Shown in pieces: positions 42,821 through 48,991 of a stretch of DNA of 64,000 bases (the first letter of the stretch is position 1; every line of letters begins with the position of its first letter). Below the pieces are notes generated by a model. The model was not told the DNA's origin. It made no database searches and saw only the letters and a list, made by a program, of their open reading frames with translations. The stretch covers positions 62,001 through 126,000 of the forward strand of contig NZ_CP023068.1 in assembly GCF_002288525.1 (NCBI RefSeq), written 5' to 3'. The translations under genes were made by a program, and so were the position numbers. The stretch is from Sinorhizobium sojae CCBAU 05684 (lineage in GTDB: Bacteria > Pseudomonadota > Alphaproteobacteria > Rhizobiales > Rhizobiaceae).

Positions 42821-42994
42821 AGCGGACCGTATCGGCGGCCACGCCGATCCTGTCTTGTCCCGAGATATACGTTTCCGCTTCCAATTGAGTGCGATGCCTC
42901 GCTCATTGCGGACGGCGGACGGGGTGAAGCCCCAGAGCTGTTCTTACCCGAAGGGACGGATGGGGGATCGCTCCGGGGCTCCGAAATGGTCCGA

Positions 42995-43342
42995 TCAGCG
43001 ACGACGGCTATCGGACCTGGACTCGCGAGAGTTTGTCCGGCTGTTCGCAAATTCGCTCGGGCAATTGTTGTTGGCCGCGGGCATTTGTCGAAGCCGCTTT
43101 TTTACAAGCTGTCCGTTTCGGCCCTCTCGGAACTTTGTGAGTCTCGCGGGCGGGTCGAGGAAAGTTACCAGCAGGAAGCCAACAGGCACGAGCAGGTAGG
43201 CCGGAATACCTGTGCTGGCGCTTGCAAGAAACGCAGTCGCCATGGCGATCGCAATGTAGACAGCGAATGCCAGCGGGCTGGCGAGCAGCCGAAAGGCGAA
43301 ATCGGAAGAGCGATATTTCCGTTCGCTGATCGAGAAAGCCAT
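42995..43342 (-). CDS. Small two-helix membrane protein, hypothetical
   Basis: The frame has 115 residues from ATG 43342, while the ATG at 43411 would add 23 residues. It starts MAFSISERKYRSSDFAFRLL. Two hydrophobic helices follow (SPLAFAVYIAIAMATAFLAS and IPAYLLVPVGFLLVTFLDPP), then a very polar basic tail ending SRESRSDSRRR. The helices make it look real, but the tail may be out-of-context sequence. Its upstream region carries the AAGGTCCTA-type motifs shared with the Gly/Asn-rich gene promoters, which hints at membership of the same regulon (inference). Confidence 0.45.
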   Translation of the reverse strand: MAFSISERKYRSSDFAFRLLASPLAFAVYIAIAMATAFLASASTGIPAYLLVPVGFLLVTFLDPPARLTKFREGRNGQLVKKRLRQMPAANNNCPSEFANSRTNSRESRSDSRRR

Positions 43343-43442
43343 TGCGGGAACTCCCAAATAGAACCTGCGTTCATCTTTGGCCGTTGCCCCCTCGGCGCTG
43401 ATTTGCACCATATGGAACGGGCCAGCTGTTTGGCAACGACCC

Positions 43443-43480
43443 TAAGACCTTTGAATGAGCAGATCGGACTAAGGTCCTAC
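43443..43480. promoter_or_regulatory. GGTCC-motif cluster upstream of the small membrane protein
   Basis: TAAGACCTTT (43443), ATCGGACTAA (43463) and AAGGTCCTAC (43471) lie within 38 bases. The same elements recur at 45350 and 48167-48321. Confidence 0.5.
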
Positions 43481-43613
43481 ACGCCACAGTTGTTCTTGAG
43501 ATCTCGTCGCGGCGACCCGGCGGCGAATTCCCATCGCGGGGAGTAGGGAAGACCGTTGAGCGTACACCGACGCCAAGGAACGGTGCATCCGATAGGCTGA
43601 GCGACGGTCTTTT

Positions 43614-43717
43614 GCAGCGCGCTGCGCGTCTTTTCAGACGCGCAAAGGGCCCTGTAACTCTTTGAACCTGCGCACCGCGCTTTCCGAAAATCGAGTGCGA
43701 TTTTCGGGCCGATGCGC
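43614..43717. repeat. RIME-type intergenic mosaic element, copy 4, overlapping the EAL gene end
   Basis: First hairpin GCGCGTC-TTTTCA-GACGCGC, spacer with CTGTAACTCTTTGAA, second hairpin CCGAAAATCG...CGATTTTCGG then GCCGATGCGCGAG. The 3' end of the EAL gene lies inside it. Confidence 0.85.
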
Positions 43718-44488
43718 GAGCGGGTTCCCGCGCTGGACCACCGGGCGGCACGGCTCGGAATAGATGGGCGGTAGCGTTGGTTCCGACAGGAGAAGGCCCT
43801 GAACGTGGGTCGCTCCGGCAATCTTGGCGGCGTCGAGTTGCTCGTATGTTTCGATCCCTTCGATCACTATCACCGATGCCGAGCGGGATGCGCGGGCGAC
43901 GATGTGGCGGAGCATGGGCGCGGCGTCGCCCCGGCCATGCCATGCCAAAGATGCATCGATCTTGACAATGTCGACGGGGAAGGACGGGAGCGTGCGGGCG
44001 ATCGCGTGTTCGGTTCCGAACGCCTCCATCGCGATCCGGTACCCCAGGGCGCGGGCGTTCTGGAGCATCGCGGCCGAATGTGTCTTCAACCCAACGCTTC
44101 CCGTGACTTCGAGAATCATGCGCCGCGCCACAGCTCGGTGCTTGAAGAGCAATTCGTATAACGTCGCCGAGCTGTGCTTGTCGGCCAGACTCGAAGCCTG
44201 GATGTCGCAACCCAGCACACAGGACGGGTGACGGGCCAGCCAGTCCAATGCGAGTTGCAGGAGGTACCGGTCGAAGGCTGGGCTGCCCGAAATCTCGGGC
44301 ATTGCCAAGAGCTCTTCACTGGTTCGGATCGTGCCGTCGGGCTCGGTGAACCTGCCCAGACACTCCGAATAGAGGACCTTTGCGAGGTCGTCGACCGCGT
44401 TGATCTGCTGCAGGGAAAACCCGATCCGTTCTTGCTGCATCGCCTGCGGCGCGACGCCGCCTGCGAGGTCGAGTTTCTCTGCATTCAT
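43634..44488 (-). CDS. Degenerate EAL-domain protein with RIME-encoded tail
   Basis: The product has 284 residues from ATG 44488. The EAL fold is recognisable: YSECLGRFTEPDG takes the place of ExLxR, followed by LDWLARHPSCVLGCDIQASS, MILEVTGSVGLKTH, VDIVKIDASLAWHG and VIVIEGIETYEQLDAAKIAG. The metal-binding DDFG is changed to MEAFG, so c-di-GMP hydrolysis is unlikely. It is probably a sensor or a protein-interaction module. The last 27 or so residues (from about AHRPENRTRFSE to the stop) are encoded by a RIME repeat, so the original C-terminus was replaced or extended. No signal or membrane segment is seen. Confidence 0.8.
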   Translation of the reverse strand: MNAEKLDLAGGVAPQAMQQERIGFSLQQINAVDDLAKVLYSECLGRFTEPDGTIRTSEELLAMPEISGSPAFDRYLLQLALDWLARHPSCVLGCDIQASSLADKHSSATLYELLFKHRAVARRMILEVTGSVGLKTHSAAMLQNARALGYRIAMEAFGTEHAIARTLPSFPVDIVKIDASLAWHGRGDAAPMLRHIVARASRSASVIVIEGIETYEQLDAAKIAGATHVQGLLLSEPTLPPIYSEPCRPVVQRGNPLAHRPENRTRFSESAVRRFKELQGPLRV

Positions 44489-44545
44489 AGGTCGACCTCT
44501 TTCGTTCAGCTCCACCGGCGGCGTCCAATCGTCGAGTGGTCAGGG

Positions 44546-45232
44546 TCACTCCGACGCTTCGAGGTCGGTCTCCGCAGGTTCTGGAAGCGTTTCGCGAATC
44601 TGGTCGATCTTGCCGACTGCAGGTCCGACGCCAAGGATATCCTTGGCTTCGAGGAGCGCATCGTCGGTCACAACGCCTCCTTTGGTGAAACTCTCCAGTG
44701 CCTCCCGCAGCGCCTCGTCGCTGAGCGCCGGATCTGTCGGTAAAGCGTCGGGACCGAACTCGGCCTCGAACGCGGCATAAGAAATCACATAGGCAGAGAT
44801 CGCCGCCATGCGGGGATCATTGGAGTTGAGATAGGCGTGGTAATTTCTCTTCAGCGAACTCAGCCCGGCGGTGTCGCTCTTGACGTTCTTCGGCTTGATC
44901 GTCGCAACGCTTCCTGTTTTCGGGACCTTCGCGGATTTGATCGTCTTCTTGGTCTTGGTGCCCCGCGTGAAAAGCGACTTCAGGACATCGCCGGCGCCTC
45001 GATTGGTCTTGCTTGCCTTGTCCTGTTTGCCGCTGGTGGAATGCCCCTTGCCGTGGCTCCCTCCATTGCCATTGCCATTGCCATTCCCTCCGCCGTTGCC
45101 ATTGCCACCGCCGCCGCCATTTCCGCCTTTGGCGAAAGCAACGTCGGCAGTGCCGAAAGCAATACTTGCCATGGGAGCAAGCGTGATGGCCAGGGCAACG
45201 ACGCTCCGTCCGACTGTTCTGGAAAGACTCAT
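44546..45232 (-). CDS. Secreted Gly/Asn-rich repeat protein (first of three)
   Basis: The protein has 228 residues with a signal peptide (LSRTVGRSVVALAITLAPMA, cleaved near AFA-KGG). A low-complexity block follows (about 36-60) of Gly/Asn repeats including GGNGNGNGNGNGGSHGKGH. The next 60 or so residues are strongly basic (TRGTKTKKTIKSAKVPKTGS), and the C-terminal 100 residues are helical and acidic (YHAYLNSNDPRMAAISAYVI, LSDEALREALESFTKGGVVT). I chose ATG 45232 after AGAGGAGGCCAAC over the upstream start at 45337. It is divergent from the sensor kinase gene. It belongs with the Gly/Asn-rich proteins at 47544 and 48413. The role is unknown. Confidence 0.82.
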   Translation of the reverse strand: MSLSRTVGRSVVALAITLAPMASIAFGTADVAFAKGGNGGGGGNGNGGGNGNGNGNGGSHGKGHSTSGKQDKASKTNRGAGDVLKSLFTRGTKTKKTIKSAKVPKTGSVATIKPKNVKSDTAGLSSLKRNYHAYLNSNDPRMAAISAYVISYAAFEAEFGPDALPTDPALSDEALREALESFTKGGVVTDDALLEAKDILGVGPAVGKIDQIRETLPEPAETDLEASE

Positions 45233-45349
45233 GTTGGCCTCCTCTCGAATCGTTGCCTCTCCGGCGAGGCAAGGGCAGACTTGATCCAGTGCGACGGTAG
45301 CTCGCGGGATACCAAGGCGCCATGGCACTCGGACCATTGCCTTGATCAG

Positions 45350-45390
45350 TAGGACTTAGGTCGCATCGGCCGTCCGGAAAAAGGTCCGAT
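45350..45390. promoter_or_regulatory. GGTCC-motif cluster between the Gly/Asn-rich gene and kinase gene
   Basis: TAGGACTTAG (45350) and AAGGTCCGAT (45381) lie in the 271-base divergent region, about 120-155 bases from both start codons. They are candidate response-regulator sites. Confidence 0.5.
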
Positions 45391-45503
45391 CCGCCACACG
45401 AAGCATGGCATGCCATTGACCCCCTTCTCGCGGGCGATAGTTTACGCCTCAATTCGACCCCAGTGCCGCCAGCGAATCGGGCGGGCGACCCCGAGAACTT
45501 GTC

Positions 45504-46904
45504 GTGCGCACAACGGACCTGATCACACGATGGAATGCACAAGCGCTGAGCAGCCAGTTCCTGCTGGCCGGCGGCATAGTTGCGGCTGCGGCAATGCTGG
45601 TGGTCGGGGCGTTCGTGACCAACCTCATAGAGGAGGCGGTCACGCGGAACTCCGCGGCGACGACGGCGCTCTACGTCGACAGCGTGATCGCTCCGCTCCT
45701 GCCCGACATGCAGACCGCCGAAGTCCTGGACGATGCCGTCGCTCGGGCGCTCGATGAAACGCTCGGCCAGGGCGCGCTCGGAAATCGGCTGCTGGAGTTT
45801 AGACTCTGGCGCGCCGACGGCACCGTCCTCTATTCGAGCCATGCGGAGATAGCCGGAAAGCGGTTCGAGCTCAGTCCGGAATTGCGGACGGCCTTTTCCG
45901 GCGAGATGGTGGCTCAATTGCAGTCGCAGGACGACTTTCAGGATGTGACCGGCCGGCCGGCCGGCAATCCGTTCCTCGAAATTTACAATCCGGTCCTGCA
46001 GCCTTGGTCGGGCGAGGTCGTGGCCGTTTCCGAATTCCATGAAATCGCCCACGACTTCCTGCAGAGCCTGCTTCGGGCGCGGTTCCTTACCTGGCTCGCT
46101 GTCGCTGGCTTCACGCTTGCCTTCTTCATCATGCTTTCGGCGATCGTCATGCGGGGAAGCAGAACGATCGAAAAACAGCGTGCGGCGCTCAAGCAGCGCA
46201 TCGACGAGCTCTCCGCGCTTCTGTCACAGAACGAGACCCTGCGCGGACGCGTGCAGCACGCCTCCCAACGGGCAACGGCGCTCAATGAGAAGATGTTAAG
46301 GCGCATCGGAGCGGATCTTCATGACGGCCCGGCGCAACTGCTGGCCTATGCCTCGTTGCGGCTGGACAGCGACCTGTTGACGAACCCGTCGACTTCGGAC
46401 GAAAAACGCGACCGCGAGCTTGCGGCGATCAAAGCCAGTCTCGAAGAGGCGATGCATGAGATCCGGACCCTGTGCAACGGGCTGGTGCTGCCGCAGATTG
46501 AAGCCGCCAGTTTGCCTGAAATCCTCGAGCGCTGTGTCCAGGCGCATAGGCAGCGGACCGGTACGGCTGTGGACTTGTCGCTCTCCGACCCGCCTGCGCA
46601 TCTTTCCCCTTCGGCGAAGATATGCATATTCCGCTTCGTACAGGAAGCGCTGAACAATGCCTATCGGCACGCTGGAGGCATCGGCCAGCGTGTCACGCAG
46701 ACCCTTGAAGGCGAAAGGATCCGGATCGAGGTGGCGGATGGCGGCCCCGGCTTCGATCCGAGCCAGATTAGCTCCACGAGCCTCGGGCTTGCCGGTCTCA
46801 GGGAGCGGGTGGAAAGTCTCGGGGGAACATTTGAACTGAACGCGGCAGCAACGGGGACTGTTGTCCGGATGTGGCTCGACATCAGGGAGATTGGGCAGAT
46901 ATGA
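45504..46904 (+). CDS. NarL-type sensor histidine kinase
   Basis: This is a 466-residue membrane kinase from a GTG start. The first transmembrane helix is at about 18-38 (FLLAGGIVAAAAMLVVGAFV), with an extracytoplasmic sensor domain (about 40-190, LWRADGTVLYSSHAEIAGKR). The second helix is at about 197-220 (FLTWLAVAGFTLAFFIMLSA), followed by a coiled-coil linker (EKQRAALKQRIDELSALLSQ). The HisKA_3 box RIGADLHDGPAQLLAYASLR has the phospho-acceptor His273, and the ATPase domain carries EALNNAYRHAGG and SLGLAGLRERVESLGG. It overlaps the response regulator by four bases (ATGA). The sensed signal is unknown, and its flanking targets are probably the Gly/Asn-rich proteins. Confidence 0.9.
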   Translation: MRTTDLITRWNAQALSSQFLLAGGIVAAAAMLVVGAFVTNLIEEAVTRNSAATTALYVDSVIAPLLPDMQTAEVLDDAVARALDETLGQGALGNRLLEFRLWRADGTVLYSSHAEIAGKRFELSPELRTAFSGEMVAQLQSQDDFQDVTGRPAGNPFLEIYNPVLQPWSGEVVAVSEFHEIAHDFLQSLLRARFLTWLAVAGFTLAFFIMLSAIVMRGSRTIEKQRAALKQRIDELSALLSQNETLRGRVQHASQRATALNEKMLRRIGADLHDGPAQLLAYASLRLDSDLLTNPSTSDEKRDRELAAIKASLEEAMHEIRTLCNGLVLPQIEAASLPEILERCVQAHRQRTGTAVDLSLSDPPAHLSPSAKICIFRFVQEALNNAYRHAGGIGQRVTQTLEGERIRIEVADGGPGFDPSQISSTSLGLAGLRERVESLGGTFELNAAATGTVVRMWLDIREIGQI

Positions 46905-47554
46905 CAGCTGTAATCCGGGTTGCAGTAATCGACGACCACCCTCTGTTCAGAGAGGGAGTCACGAGAAGCCTGTCGGAGATCGAGGGATTTGAAGTCGTCG
47001 CCGAGGGGGACTCACACGACGACGCGCTGAGAATCGCCGAAAATCTCAATCCCGACGTGATGCTTCTCGACATCTCCATGCCGGGCGGCGGACTGGCCGC
47101 TATCCCGCTCATCCTTGAGATCGTCCCGTCGCAGAAGATCGTCATGCTCACGGTTTCGGAAGCCGGCGACGACGTCACCGCTGCGCTGCAGAATGGCGCC
47201 CGAGGCTATGTGCTCAAGGGTGTCGGATCGAGGGCGCTGGCGGATATCATCCGGACGGTCGCATCGGGGGAAAGCTATGTGGCGCCGACGCTTTCGGCGA
47301 AGCTATTGTCCAGCCGGGCCTCAGAGCCTGCGCGCAAGTCCGACCTGATCCGGGATCTGACTCTTCGGGAGAAAGAGGTTCTCAATCTCGTCGCGTCCGG
47401 CATGAGCAACAAGCAGGTCGCAAGGCGGCTCAATCTGCACGAGAAGACTGTCAAGCACCACATGACTCAGATCATGGCAAAGCTCGACGTCGCCAACCGG
47501 ACGGAGGCCGCGATGGTGCTGCGCGACGCGCTTGACCGCCCGCTCAGTCAATGA
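46901..47554 (+). CDS. LuxR/NarL-type response regulator
   Basis: The protein has 217 residues. The receiver domain (about 5-120) has the acidic pair VIDDHPLFREGVTRSL, the phosphorylation site Asp57 in VMLLDISMPGGG, and the Thr/Lys switch residues near IVMLTVSE and GYVLKG. The C-terminal GerE/LuxR helix-turn-helix is LTLREKEVLNLVASGMSNKQ followed by VARRLNLHEKTVKHHMTQIM. I chose ATG 46901 in the ATGA overlap with the kinase gene. Its stop overlaps the end of the convergent 47544 gene by 11 bases. The repeated A(A/T)GGTCC(G/T)A motif in nearby promoters is its likely target. Confidence 0.92.
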   Translation: MTAVIRVAVIDDHPLFREGVTRSLSEIEGFEVVAEGDSHDDALRIAENLNPDVMLLDISMPGGGLAAIPLILEIVPSQKIVMLTVSEAGDDVTAALQNGARGYVLKGVGSRALADIIRTVASGESYVAPTLSAKLLSSRASEPARKSDLIRDLTLREKEVLNLVASGMSNKQVARRLNLHEKTVKHHMTQIMAKLDVANRTEAAMVLRDALDRPLSQ

Positions 47555-48005
47555 AGGACAAGAGCCGTTTCTGATCGTCTTCAGTGGCGCGACGGTTGAC
47601 GATCGTGCGCCCACGGGCATCCTTCATGATGTATCGCCCGTTTCTGATCTCTTCGCTTATACCTTGGGCGTGGCGTACTCGCAAAGTCGAACTGCGATTT
47701 CCGATGCTTGCGCCTCGTGCGCTCGACCCGCCCGAATTGCCGCTCGACCGGCTCTCGCTTGAATTGTCGCGGCCCTTGCTGCTGCCGCCCCCATTTCCGC
47801 CCCCCCGGCCATTGCCGCCGGAATTGCCGCTCCCCCCGCCATTTCCCTTGCCCTCGTTCTTGGCGAGTGCAGACTGGGGCGCGACCTCAAGGCTCGAACC
47901 GGAAATTGTTACCTTGTAGGGAAGCGCGACGAAGCCCACCGACGCAACGAACAGGACCGCGATGGTCTTCCGTCGCGTCGTCTTCGTCTTCTTGAGGAAC
48001 GTCAT
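47544..48005 (-). CDS. Secreted Gly/Asn/Ser-rich protein (second of three)
   Basis: The protein has 153 residues. The N-terminus MTFLKKTKTTRRKTIAVLFV plus ASVGFVALPYKVTISGS could be a signal or anchor. Residues about 50-100 are low complexity (GGGSGNSGGNGRGGGNGGGS then Ser-rich). The C-terminal 45 residues form a conserved-looking small domain (RHAQGISEEIRNGRYIMKDA; RGRTIVNRRATEDDQKRLLS). GGAAGGTGCGCC precedes ATG 48005. It converges on the response regulator gene with an 11-base overlap. It shares composition and promoter motifs with the proteins at 44546 and 48413, though not obvious sequence homology outside the repeats. Confidence 0.8.
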   Translation of the reverse strand: MTFLKKTKTTRRKTIAVLFVASVGFVALPYKVTISGSSLEVAPQSALAKNEGKGNGGGSGNSGGNGRGGGNGGGSSKGRDNSSESRSSGNSGGSSARGASIGNRSSTLRVRHAQGISEEIRNGRYIMKDARGRTIVNRRATEDDQKRLLSFID

Positions 48006-48412
48006 GGCGCACCTTCCGCCTCATAAAGCTTGACCCGGCAGCCGGGATCGGGTTCCGCGTGATATCGACACGAAATTCAAAAATCGCACAAAGCACGCGT
48101 GATCTTGGGATCACCTTGCTTACCCCCCAACAAATCGTCAAGCCGCGTCTTCCGCAGTCAGCGCCTTTAGGACCTTTCCCTCGGCGCGGTAAGACCTTTG
48201 CCTAAGACGAAGGTCCTAAGCACTTTCCCTTTCCCCTTGCTTCAGGCCGGTTTGTCTCAATGGCCGATTGGAATCTTTGGTGATCGGACCAAAGGCTCAA
48301 ACGGAAAGGCAATGGTCCGATGCGGTTGGTGCGCACGGAACAATCTCGGGAACGCCGAATTCGAACTTGCCGAACTGGAGCTTGCACTTTGACCTAAAAA
48401 AGGAACACGGAC
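48006..48412. promoter_or_regulatory. Divergent regulatory region between two Gly/Asn-rich genes
   Basis: This 407-base stretch has no credible gene, and the short frame 48198..48392 looks spurious. It holds two clusters of GGTCC-type motifs: TTAGGACCTT (48167), TAAGACCTTT (48190) and AAGGTCCTAA (48210), then the inverted pair ATCGGACC (48283) / GGTCCGAT (48314). The left cluster would serve 47544 and the right cluster 48413. They are probably bound by the adjacent response regulator (inference). Confidence 0.55.
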
Positions 48413-48991
48413 ATGAAGAGAATTGTCGCAAGTTTAGCTGCCGCACTGCTCGCCTGCGCCAGCGTGGCCTCACCCGTTTTCGCACAGGACGGCAATGGAA
48501 ATGGAAATGGAAACGGCAAAGGCAATGAGCGAGGCACCGAGAACAGTGCCGCCGAAAGCGCCCCGGGACATGGCAAGGGCGAAGGCGAGAGCGCCAGAGA
48601 CGTTGCGCCCGGTCAAGTGAAAAGCGACGACGAAAGTGCCAAATCTTACGCACCGGGTCAAATCAAGCGGGCTGGCGACGGAGGTGACGATGATACGACC
48701 GGCAGCGTGGACAAGAGGAATCTCGGCACCCTTATCTCCACTCTCCGCGCCGACAGGACCGATCTGGGCGGAATTCAGGATGACGTCGAGGTCACCGTGG
48801 TCGACGTCGACGAGTTCGTGGTCAATCGCACCGCCCTCGACAACGCCGTCGAGGCCCGGGAGGCAGAGATCGCCCGGCTTCGCGAAGACCTGGCCGAGCT
48901 CGACTTGGACGACCTCACCGATGAGCAGATAGGGGCCGCGGTTGCGGTGCGCGTCGAGGCTGACGGCACGCTTACAGTTTTCGTCGACTGA
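48413..48991 (+). CDS. Secreted Gly/Asn-rich repeat protein (third of three)
   Basis: The protein has 192 residues with a signal peptide (MKRIVASLAAALLACASVAS, cleaved after VFA-Q). The mature start DGNGNGNGNGKGNERG is a Gly/Asn repeat. Residues 50-85 hold a 15-residue tandem repeat whose units begin APGHGK, APGQVK and APGQIK. A helical acidic C-terminal domain follows (about 100-192: LGTLISTLRADRTDLGGIQD, ALDNAVEAREAEIARLREDL). AAAGGAACACGGAC precedes the ATG. A perfect-stem terminator (49001) follows. It is probably extracellular or periplasmic and controlled by the neighbouring two-component system (inference). Confidence 0.85.
   Translation: MKRIVASLAAALLACASVASPVFAQDGNGNGNGNGKGNERGTENSAAESAPGHGKGEGESARDVAPGQVKSDDESAKSYAPGQIKRAGDGGDDDTTGSVDKRNLGTLISTLRADRTDLGGIQDDVEVTVVDVDEFVVNRTALDNAVEAREAEIARLREDLAELDLDDLTDEQIGAAVAVRVEADGTLTVFVD
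48560..48667 (+). repeat. In-frame 45-base tandem repeat
   Basis: About 2.4 copies of a 15-codon unit in the Gly/Asn-rich gene encode APGHGK..., APGQVK... and APGQIK. The copies have diverged, so the unit is kept at the protein level. Confidence 0.7.

Follow-up and report, generated by a model that had tools for sequence, protein, structure and literature searches.

Do a two-component system and the genes for small exported proteins that surround it, joined by a short motif recurring upstream, form one regulatory unit, and if so, which one? The question is raised by positions 42986–48991 of a 64 kb stretch of Sinorhizobium sojae CCBAU 05684 DNA (hereafter the window), part of contig 2 in a genome of three contigs and 6.09 Mb. 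The answer we favor, with reasonable confidence, is a Rhizobiaceae envelope-signaling module of the EmmABC type, whose regulator would act at a 16-bp inverted repeat (dyad), TMRGACYTWRGTCYKA. An initial annotation of the window had put forward a NarL-type kinase/regulator pair among Gly/Asn-rich secreted proteins with common promoter motifs, an interpretation that our results support in part.

The central observation of that annotation stood as a whole, as the kinase and regulator are both present with the expected domains. All four of these (HisKA_3, HATPase_c, Response_reg, GerE) exceed their Pfam gathering scores and place the pair in the class combining a HisKA_3 kinase with a NarL/FixJ regulator; the start of the regulator overlaps the stop of the kinase (ATGA). 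The three flanking genes for exported proteins, here called GN1, GN2 and GN3, are also present, and two further genes had been omitted: an EAL-domain gene downstream of GN1 and a small membrane-protein gene whose promoter holds the best dyad in the window. The block thus comprises:

42995–43342, minus strand: small membrane protein with two hydrophobic stretches (recognized by eye) and its own dyad-bearing upstream region
43634–44488, minus strand: EAL-domain protein (PF00563, E = 3.4e-27), on the same strand as GN1 and directly downstream of it
44546–45232, minus strand: GN1, Gly/Asn-rich and exported, in divergent orientation to the kinase; its conserved C-terminal domain (~110 residues) is duplicated in some relatives
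45504–46904, plus strand: NarL-type sensor histidine kinase of 466 residues, probable EmmB orthologue (HisKA_3, E = 8.7e-7; HATPase_c, E = 6.2e-11)
46901–47554, plus strand: NarL/LuxR-type response regulator, probable EmmC orthologue (Response_reg, E = 1e-20; GerE, E = 5e-20)
47544–48005, minus strand: GN2, probably orthologous to EmmA; a Gly/Asn-rich exported protein conserved in its C-terminal domain and encoded convergently with the regulator
48413–48991, plus strand: GN3, lineage-specific exported protein whose Gly/Asn tract is short; its gene runs divergently from that of GN2

Conservation of this block within the genus, which the initial annotation had suggested checking, was borne out: 32 of the 33 genus genomes gave a kinase match, the regulator adjoined it in all 33 loci compared, and small membrane-protein homologues were found in 27 of the 33 genomes. 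To reach beyond the window, we scanned GTDB contigs with two peptide patterns for GN2 and obtained 60 loci. In 58 of them the flanking sequence retrieved contained both kinase and regulator, and in 47 also GN1. GN3 is confined to 4 of the 33 genus genomes. The kinase orthologue of one genome (L014, G029) carries a single internal TAG, and another locus (L062, G017) has a paralogous copy of the module, consisting of a second kinase (62% identical), a regulator and a GN2-like gene.

We then considered the motif within the window. Seven exact matches to AWGGTCCKA occur in its 64 kb, all within 5.3 kb (42986–48320), against a mean of 1.39 and a maximum of 6 in 100 shuffles of the window, none of which reached seven. 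The five positions reported earlier for A(A/T)GGTCC(G/T)A are exact; a further copy at 45329 on the minus strand had been missed, and one listed at 48167 as merely related is exact as well (48168–48176, minus strand). Six of the seven sites lie upstream of block genes, in keeping with the proposed promoter locations. The seventh, at 42986, sits just beyond the stop codon that closes the small membrane-protein frame; since none of the three closest relatives has a counterpart, we rejected it as a promoter element. The shared cis-motif is real, and the 9-mer first described is a half-site of the 16-bp dyad. Four dyads with at most two mismatches are present in the window, all inside the block, and are accompanied by half-sites:

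43443–43451: extra near half-site beside the small membrane-protein dyad
43464–43479: best dyad of the window, a predicted operator preceding the small membrane-protein gene, TAGGACCTTAGTCCGA on the minus strand without mismatch
45329–45337, minus strand: half-site ATGGTCCGA within TCGGACCATTGCCTT
45350–45365: degenerate predicted operator dyad TAGGACTTAGGTCGCA between GN1 and the kinase, 2 mismatches, with a genus-wide footprint
45381–45389, plus strand: half-site AAGGTCCGA upstream of the kinase
48168–48198, minus strand: a pair of half-sites, exact at 48168 and with a single mismatch at 48190, located between the dyad and the TTGACG conserved upstream of GN2
48203–48218: predicted operator dyad between GN2 and GN3, minus strand TAGGACCTTCGTCTTA, 1 mismatch
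48284–48320: degenerate dyad (48284–48299, 2 mismatches) and half-site ATGGTCCGA (48312–48320) upstream of GN3

The 15-mer TCGGACCATTGCCTT is common to the GN1–kinase region and, inverted, to the region upstream of GN3 (complement at 48306). The looser copies weigh little by themselves, because sites within one mismatch of AAGGTCCKA were no commoner in the window than expected by chance (23 versus a shuffle mean of 16.65, with 9 of 100 shuffles reaching 23).

Confirmation independent of the window comes from other genomes. Alignment of the GN1–kinase intergenic DNA across 33 loci revealed conserved blocks consisting of two half-sites, one of them within CGGACCATTGC, and a dyad (TAGGACTTAGGTCYGA), the dyad being recognizable by eye in every row except L053, L055 and L062. 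Upstream of GN2, the Sinorhizobium alignment contained a second dyad, of the TCAGACCTTGGTCCKA type, with half-sites ahead of a conserved TTGAC box. The consensus was derived from these genus footprints and applied outside the genus to 39 of the 60 GN2 loci, selected by name, using fixed windows of 300 bp upstream of the kinase and 700 bp upstream of GN2 that include some coding DNA. In these loci, the 39 kb preceding kinase or GN2 contained 52 dyads versus 8 in the remaining 434 kb, the reversed pattern gave none in either compartment, and 30 of the 39 loci had at least one upstream dyad. A comparable picture emerged for the small membrane protein, for which we examined 30 of 38 homologue matches: 22 of them had a dyad no more than 350 bp ahead of the gene, versus 0 of 30 for the reversed control, and the remaining 86 kb of these loci held one dyad. 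Four of the 30 come from the window's clade and adjoin the block, and among the 26 outside the block 18 were preceded by a dyad. The dyad also accompanied genes that had moved, namely a GN1-type gene in L203 and GN2 in L221.

The dyad likewise tracked the module at the level of whole genomes. Across the 33 genus genomes, we counted 454 strand-wise matches with at most one mismatch versus 207 for the reversed control, with the dyad ahead in 27 genomes and behind in four. Among 297 Rhizobiaceae genomes, a perfect dyad was present in 31 of the 69 that have a GN2 match versus 13 of the 228 that have none (Fisher P = 3e-13, a statistic that ignores relatedness and includes weak GN2 matches that may be low-complexity), and the reversed control showed no such association (11 of 69 versus 23 of 228, P = 0.2). 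Tightening the GN2 limit to 1e-20 gave 23 of 40 versus 21 of 257. Taken with gene conservation, these data support the view of the block as a single conserved regulatory unit whose promoters share a cis-motif.

To see which genes accompany the dyad elsewhere, we clustered the frames within 350 bp of dyads at 70 loci (40 picked and 30 from the search), a qualitative exercise in which the same site was sometimes taken twice and antisense frames were included; one picked locus, L230, had no dyad within one mismatch near its center. Among the matches listed, the commonest frames encoded the small membrane protein (14 loci) and an orphan of ~70 residues (10), followed, along with others, by GN2 (5), small exported proteins and GN1 (3). 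The window's own genome also has a perfect dyad on contig 1 (L229, G000 C1:1385388), 60 bp upstream of a gene for a small exported protein, relatives of which in three other genomes likewise have a dyad. A trans-acting regulon marked by the dyad is well supported. We lean, by a modest margin of belief over doubt, toward a broader proposal in which systems of the EmmB–EmmC type would govern tiny orphan proteins, membrane-bound or exported, as one regulon throughout the Rhizobiaceae, one 16-bp operator would accompany moving targets, and the Gly/Asn-rich exported proteins would be conserved first targets and feedback elements.

How might such a unit work? In the mechanism we propose, the kinase would sense the state of the envelope via its extracytoplasmic domain and phosphorylate the NarL-type regulator, which would then bind the inverted repeat TMRGAC-YTWR-GTCYKA together with the extra half-sites. 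Its targets would be its own operon, the divergent GN1–EAL unit, GN2, GN3 and the small membrane-protein gene and, in relatives, small membrane and exported proteins at other loci. The exported Gly/Asn-rich proteins would serve as outputs and probably as periplasmic feedback elements. Three-component systems, in which a secreted periplasmic protein acts on the kinase, are a candidate class for such an arrangement. We infer the direction of regulation, the autoregulation, the envelope signal and the feedback role.

Several results weigh against this reading. The window's own genome holds 74 exact 9-mer matches versus 149 for the reversed control, so the 9-mer is not enriched genome-wide, which would amount to the outcome (the motif being as frequent elsewhere in the genome) that the initial annotation had named as refuting it; across relatives, however, the dyad is strongly placed at these promoters. 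The dyad showed no excess there either (40 strand-wise matches at up to two mismatches versus 122 reversed), nor did a shorter form (7 versus 8), although the composition of the reversed control differs from that of the dyad, which makes it an imperfect comparison; a 10-base form gave 20 versus 13. Because of the 74 versus 149 count, we speak of a cluster rather than a general enrichment of the 9-mer: 7 of the 74 fall within these 5.3 kb, where 0.065 would be expected; the Poisson P of about 1e-12 is optimistic because the motif was picked from this stretch. Furthermore, the dyad beside the window's kinase is degenerate (2 mismatches), 9 of the 39 loci outside the genus had none upstream of kinase or GN2, and 8 of the 30 small membrane-protein homologues lacked one, several of the other 22 being closely related. 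Finally, 38 of the 69 genomes with GN2 have no perfect dyad, and family-wide the perfect dyad (44 of 297 genomes) hardly differs from the reversed pattern (34 of 297), which is why we regard its excess as confined to module-bearing genomes.

Binding of the dyad by the encoded regulator is itself predicted from sequence, and the site may instead belong to a different conserved regulator, for example an orphan LuxR-type or global protein, that would control the whole block including the two-component genes. Dyads stand before many genes outside the block, and 13 of the 228 genomes lacking a GN2 match carry a perfect dyad, some of which may be chance given 23 of 228 for the reversed pattern. We nevertheless consider a different regulator unlikely, as the dyad lies in the upstream region of the kinase/regulator operon itself, both in the genus and outside it, and its presence tracks the module across genomes. 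Inverted repeats of about this size are usual for regulators of the NarL/LuxR type.

If the encoded pair is the regulator of the block, which system is it? The initial annotation knew of no described system like this one, which is probably wrong, because the pair is very likely EmmB–EmmC of S. meliloti. EmmABC of S. meliloti was reportedly described by Morris and Gonzalez in 2009. In the available text of PMC3233446, EmmA is secreted to the periplasm, EmmB is the sensor and EmmC the response protein, and emm mutants are altered in exopolysaccharide I (EPS I, succinoglycan), motility and stress tolerance; the accessible part of PMC10659215 counts EmmB–EmmC among envelope-integrity systems. Overproduction of succinoglycan, along with defective motility and stress responses, characterizes EmmABC mutants. 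The orthologous locus of S. meliloti 2011 lies at pSymB 1,443,217–1,444,611 with homologues of GN1, the EAL gene and GN2. Its GN2 gene is preceded by a perfect dyad, and a dyad with one mismatch lies in the gap between GN1 and the kinase. This position falls within pSymB interval B301 (flanks at nt 1,204,420 and 1,530,068), where emmABC is placed in the portion of PMC12239276 available to us. Of three HisKA_3 matches on pSymB, this locus alone is inside B301, and of the receiver loci found in the interval it is the only one that combines kinase, regulator and an adjoining small secreted protein; the two remaining receiver loci, each read over 13 kb, showed no GN1 or GN2 homologue among frames of at least 90 residues. 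In S. meliloti RCAM1115, annotated minCDE genes follow the orthologous locus.

From gene content and location, then, the pair is probably EmmB–EmmC, and we infer from size and place that GN2, rather than GN1, corresponds to EmmA. It is doubtful that the block is something other than EmmABC and the B301 locus another two-component system. That alternative draws on the available text of two reviews (PMC3233446 and PMC8227245), in which the emm genes are called chromosomal, contrary to a pSymB placement and a further point against our reading, and on an identification through location and gene content rather than locus tags (SMb21516–SMb21521 had no match in the open-licence literature). The HisKA_3 kinase, regulator and adjoining small exported proteins are, however, combined at this one receiver locus of the interval in which the available part of PMC12239276 reports emmABC. 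"EMMA" in the accessible text of PMC8343143 is a microarray program, not EmmA. The remaining explanation, that the motif recurs through chance or composition and the neighbors lack common control, is very improbable and strongly disfavored, for while neither 9-mer nor dyad exceeds the reversed control in the own genome, one-mismatch copies in the window are no commoner than chance and the motif was picked from this region, the footprints in relatives were not used for picking it, and the 52 versus 8 dyads and the 22 of 30 membrane-protein homologues stand against it.

EmmABC and the block share a sensor kinase, a response regulator and a small secreted protein; compared with EmmABC as portrayed in the available sources, the block adds GN1, the EAL gene, the small membrane protein, GN3, and a proposed conserved operator with a proposed wider regulon. 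No operator or regulon for EmmABC was found in the open-licence literature, where five dyad cores matched only two reports, both concerning human genes or transcripts to judge by title and abstract. ExoR–ExoS–ChvI of S. meliloti resembles the block in joining a two-component system to a periplasmic partner; ExoS–ChvI is not known to be a NarL-type pair. ExoR–ExoS–ChvI is called functionally similar to EmmABC, with no cross-regulation shown, in the available text of PMC3233446. Systems of the NarXL/DesK type share the HisKA_3 kinase and NarL-type regulator, and the window's kinase core matches the solved structures of DesK and VraS by sequence and DesK by fold. They differ from the block in that its sensor region has no Pfam family match and no listed NCBIfam equivalog reaches its cut-off (the regulator scored E = 1.2e-47 against the NarL model, below the model cut-off). 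The AlphaFold model of the kinase (mean predicted local distance difference test, pLDDT, 73.7) places an alpha/beta region between two long helices, with 10-residue block means of 53–84; since fold matches were dominated by kinase cores (DesK) and a WalK model, we claim no ligand.

The exported and EAL proteins differ in character. All three exported genes named by the initial annotation exist, and we count GN3 as only weakly Gly/Asn-rich because its richest 40-residue stretch reaches 42.5% Gly+Asn, compared with 65% in GN1 and 60% in GN2. GN1 has no Pfam match at E 0.1 and no NCBIfam match at E 0.01, and its predicted structure (pLDDT 40) was not used. The C-terminal domain of GN1 is tandemly duplicated in 10 of 30 extracted proteins (L034–L041, L044, L051), some of the other 20 being shortened by start choice. 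Near the N-terminus of GN2, RRxF[LVIM] occurs in 20 of 32 sequences as extracted, which we take to suggest twin-arginine translocation (Tat) export; in a close relative (L031), the GN2 frame is broken near the Gly/Asn tract by a frame change or a sequencing error. A resemblance of GN3 to the CigR family (E = 1e-3, 19.5 bits versus a cut-off of 78) was set aside as low-complexity. DDFGTG is the metal-binding motif of active EAL phosphodiesterases. The window's EAL protein has EAFGTE in its place, and we doubt that it is an active phosphodiesterase. Across L031–L061 and the window, DDFGTG is kept in 11 of 29 sequences, and its loss in the window's clade may mark a change from enzyme to non-enzyme.

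As far as the available sources describe it, EmmABC has so far been characterized from mutants, through exopolysaccharide, motility, stress and symbiosis phenotypes. The predicted operator would make its direct targets immediately testable, also in laboratory strains of S. meliloti, and several orphan small proteins of rhizobia would gain a first regulatory assignment.

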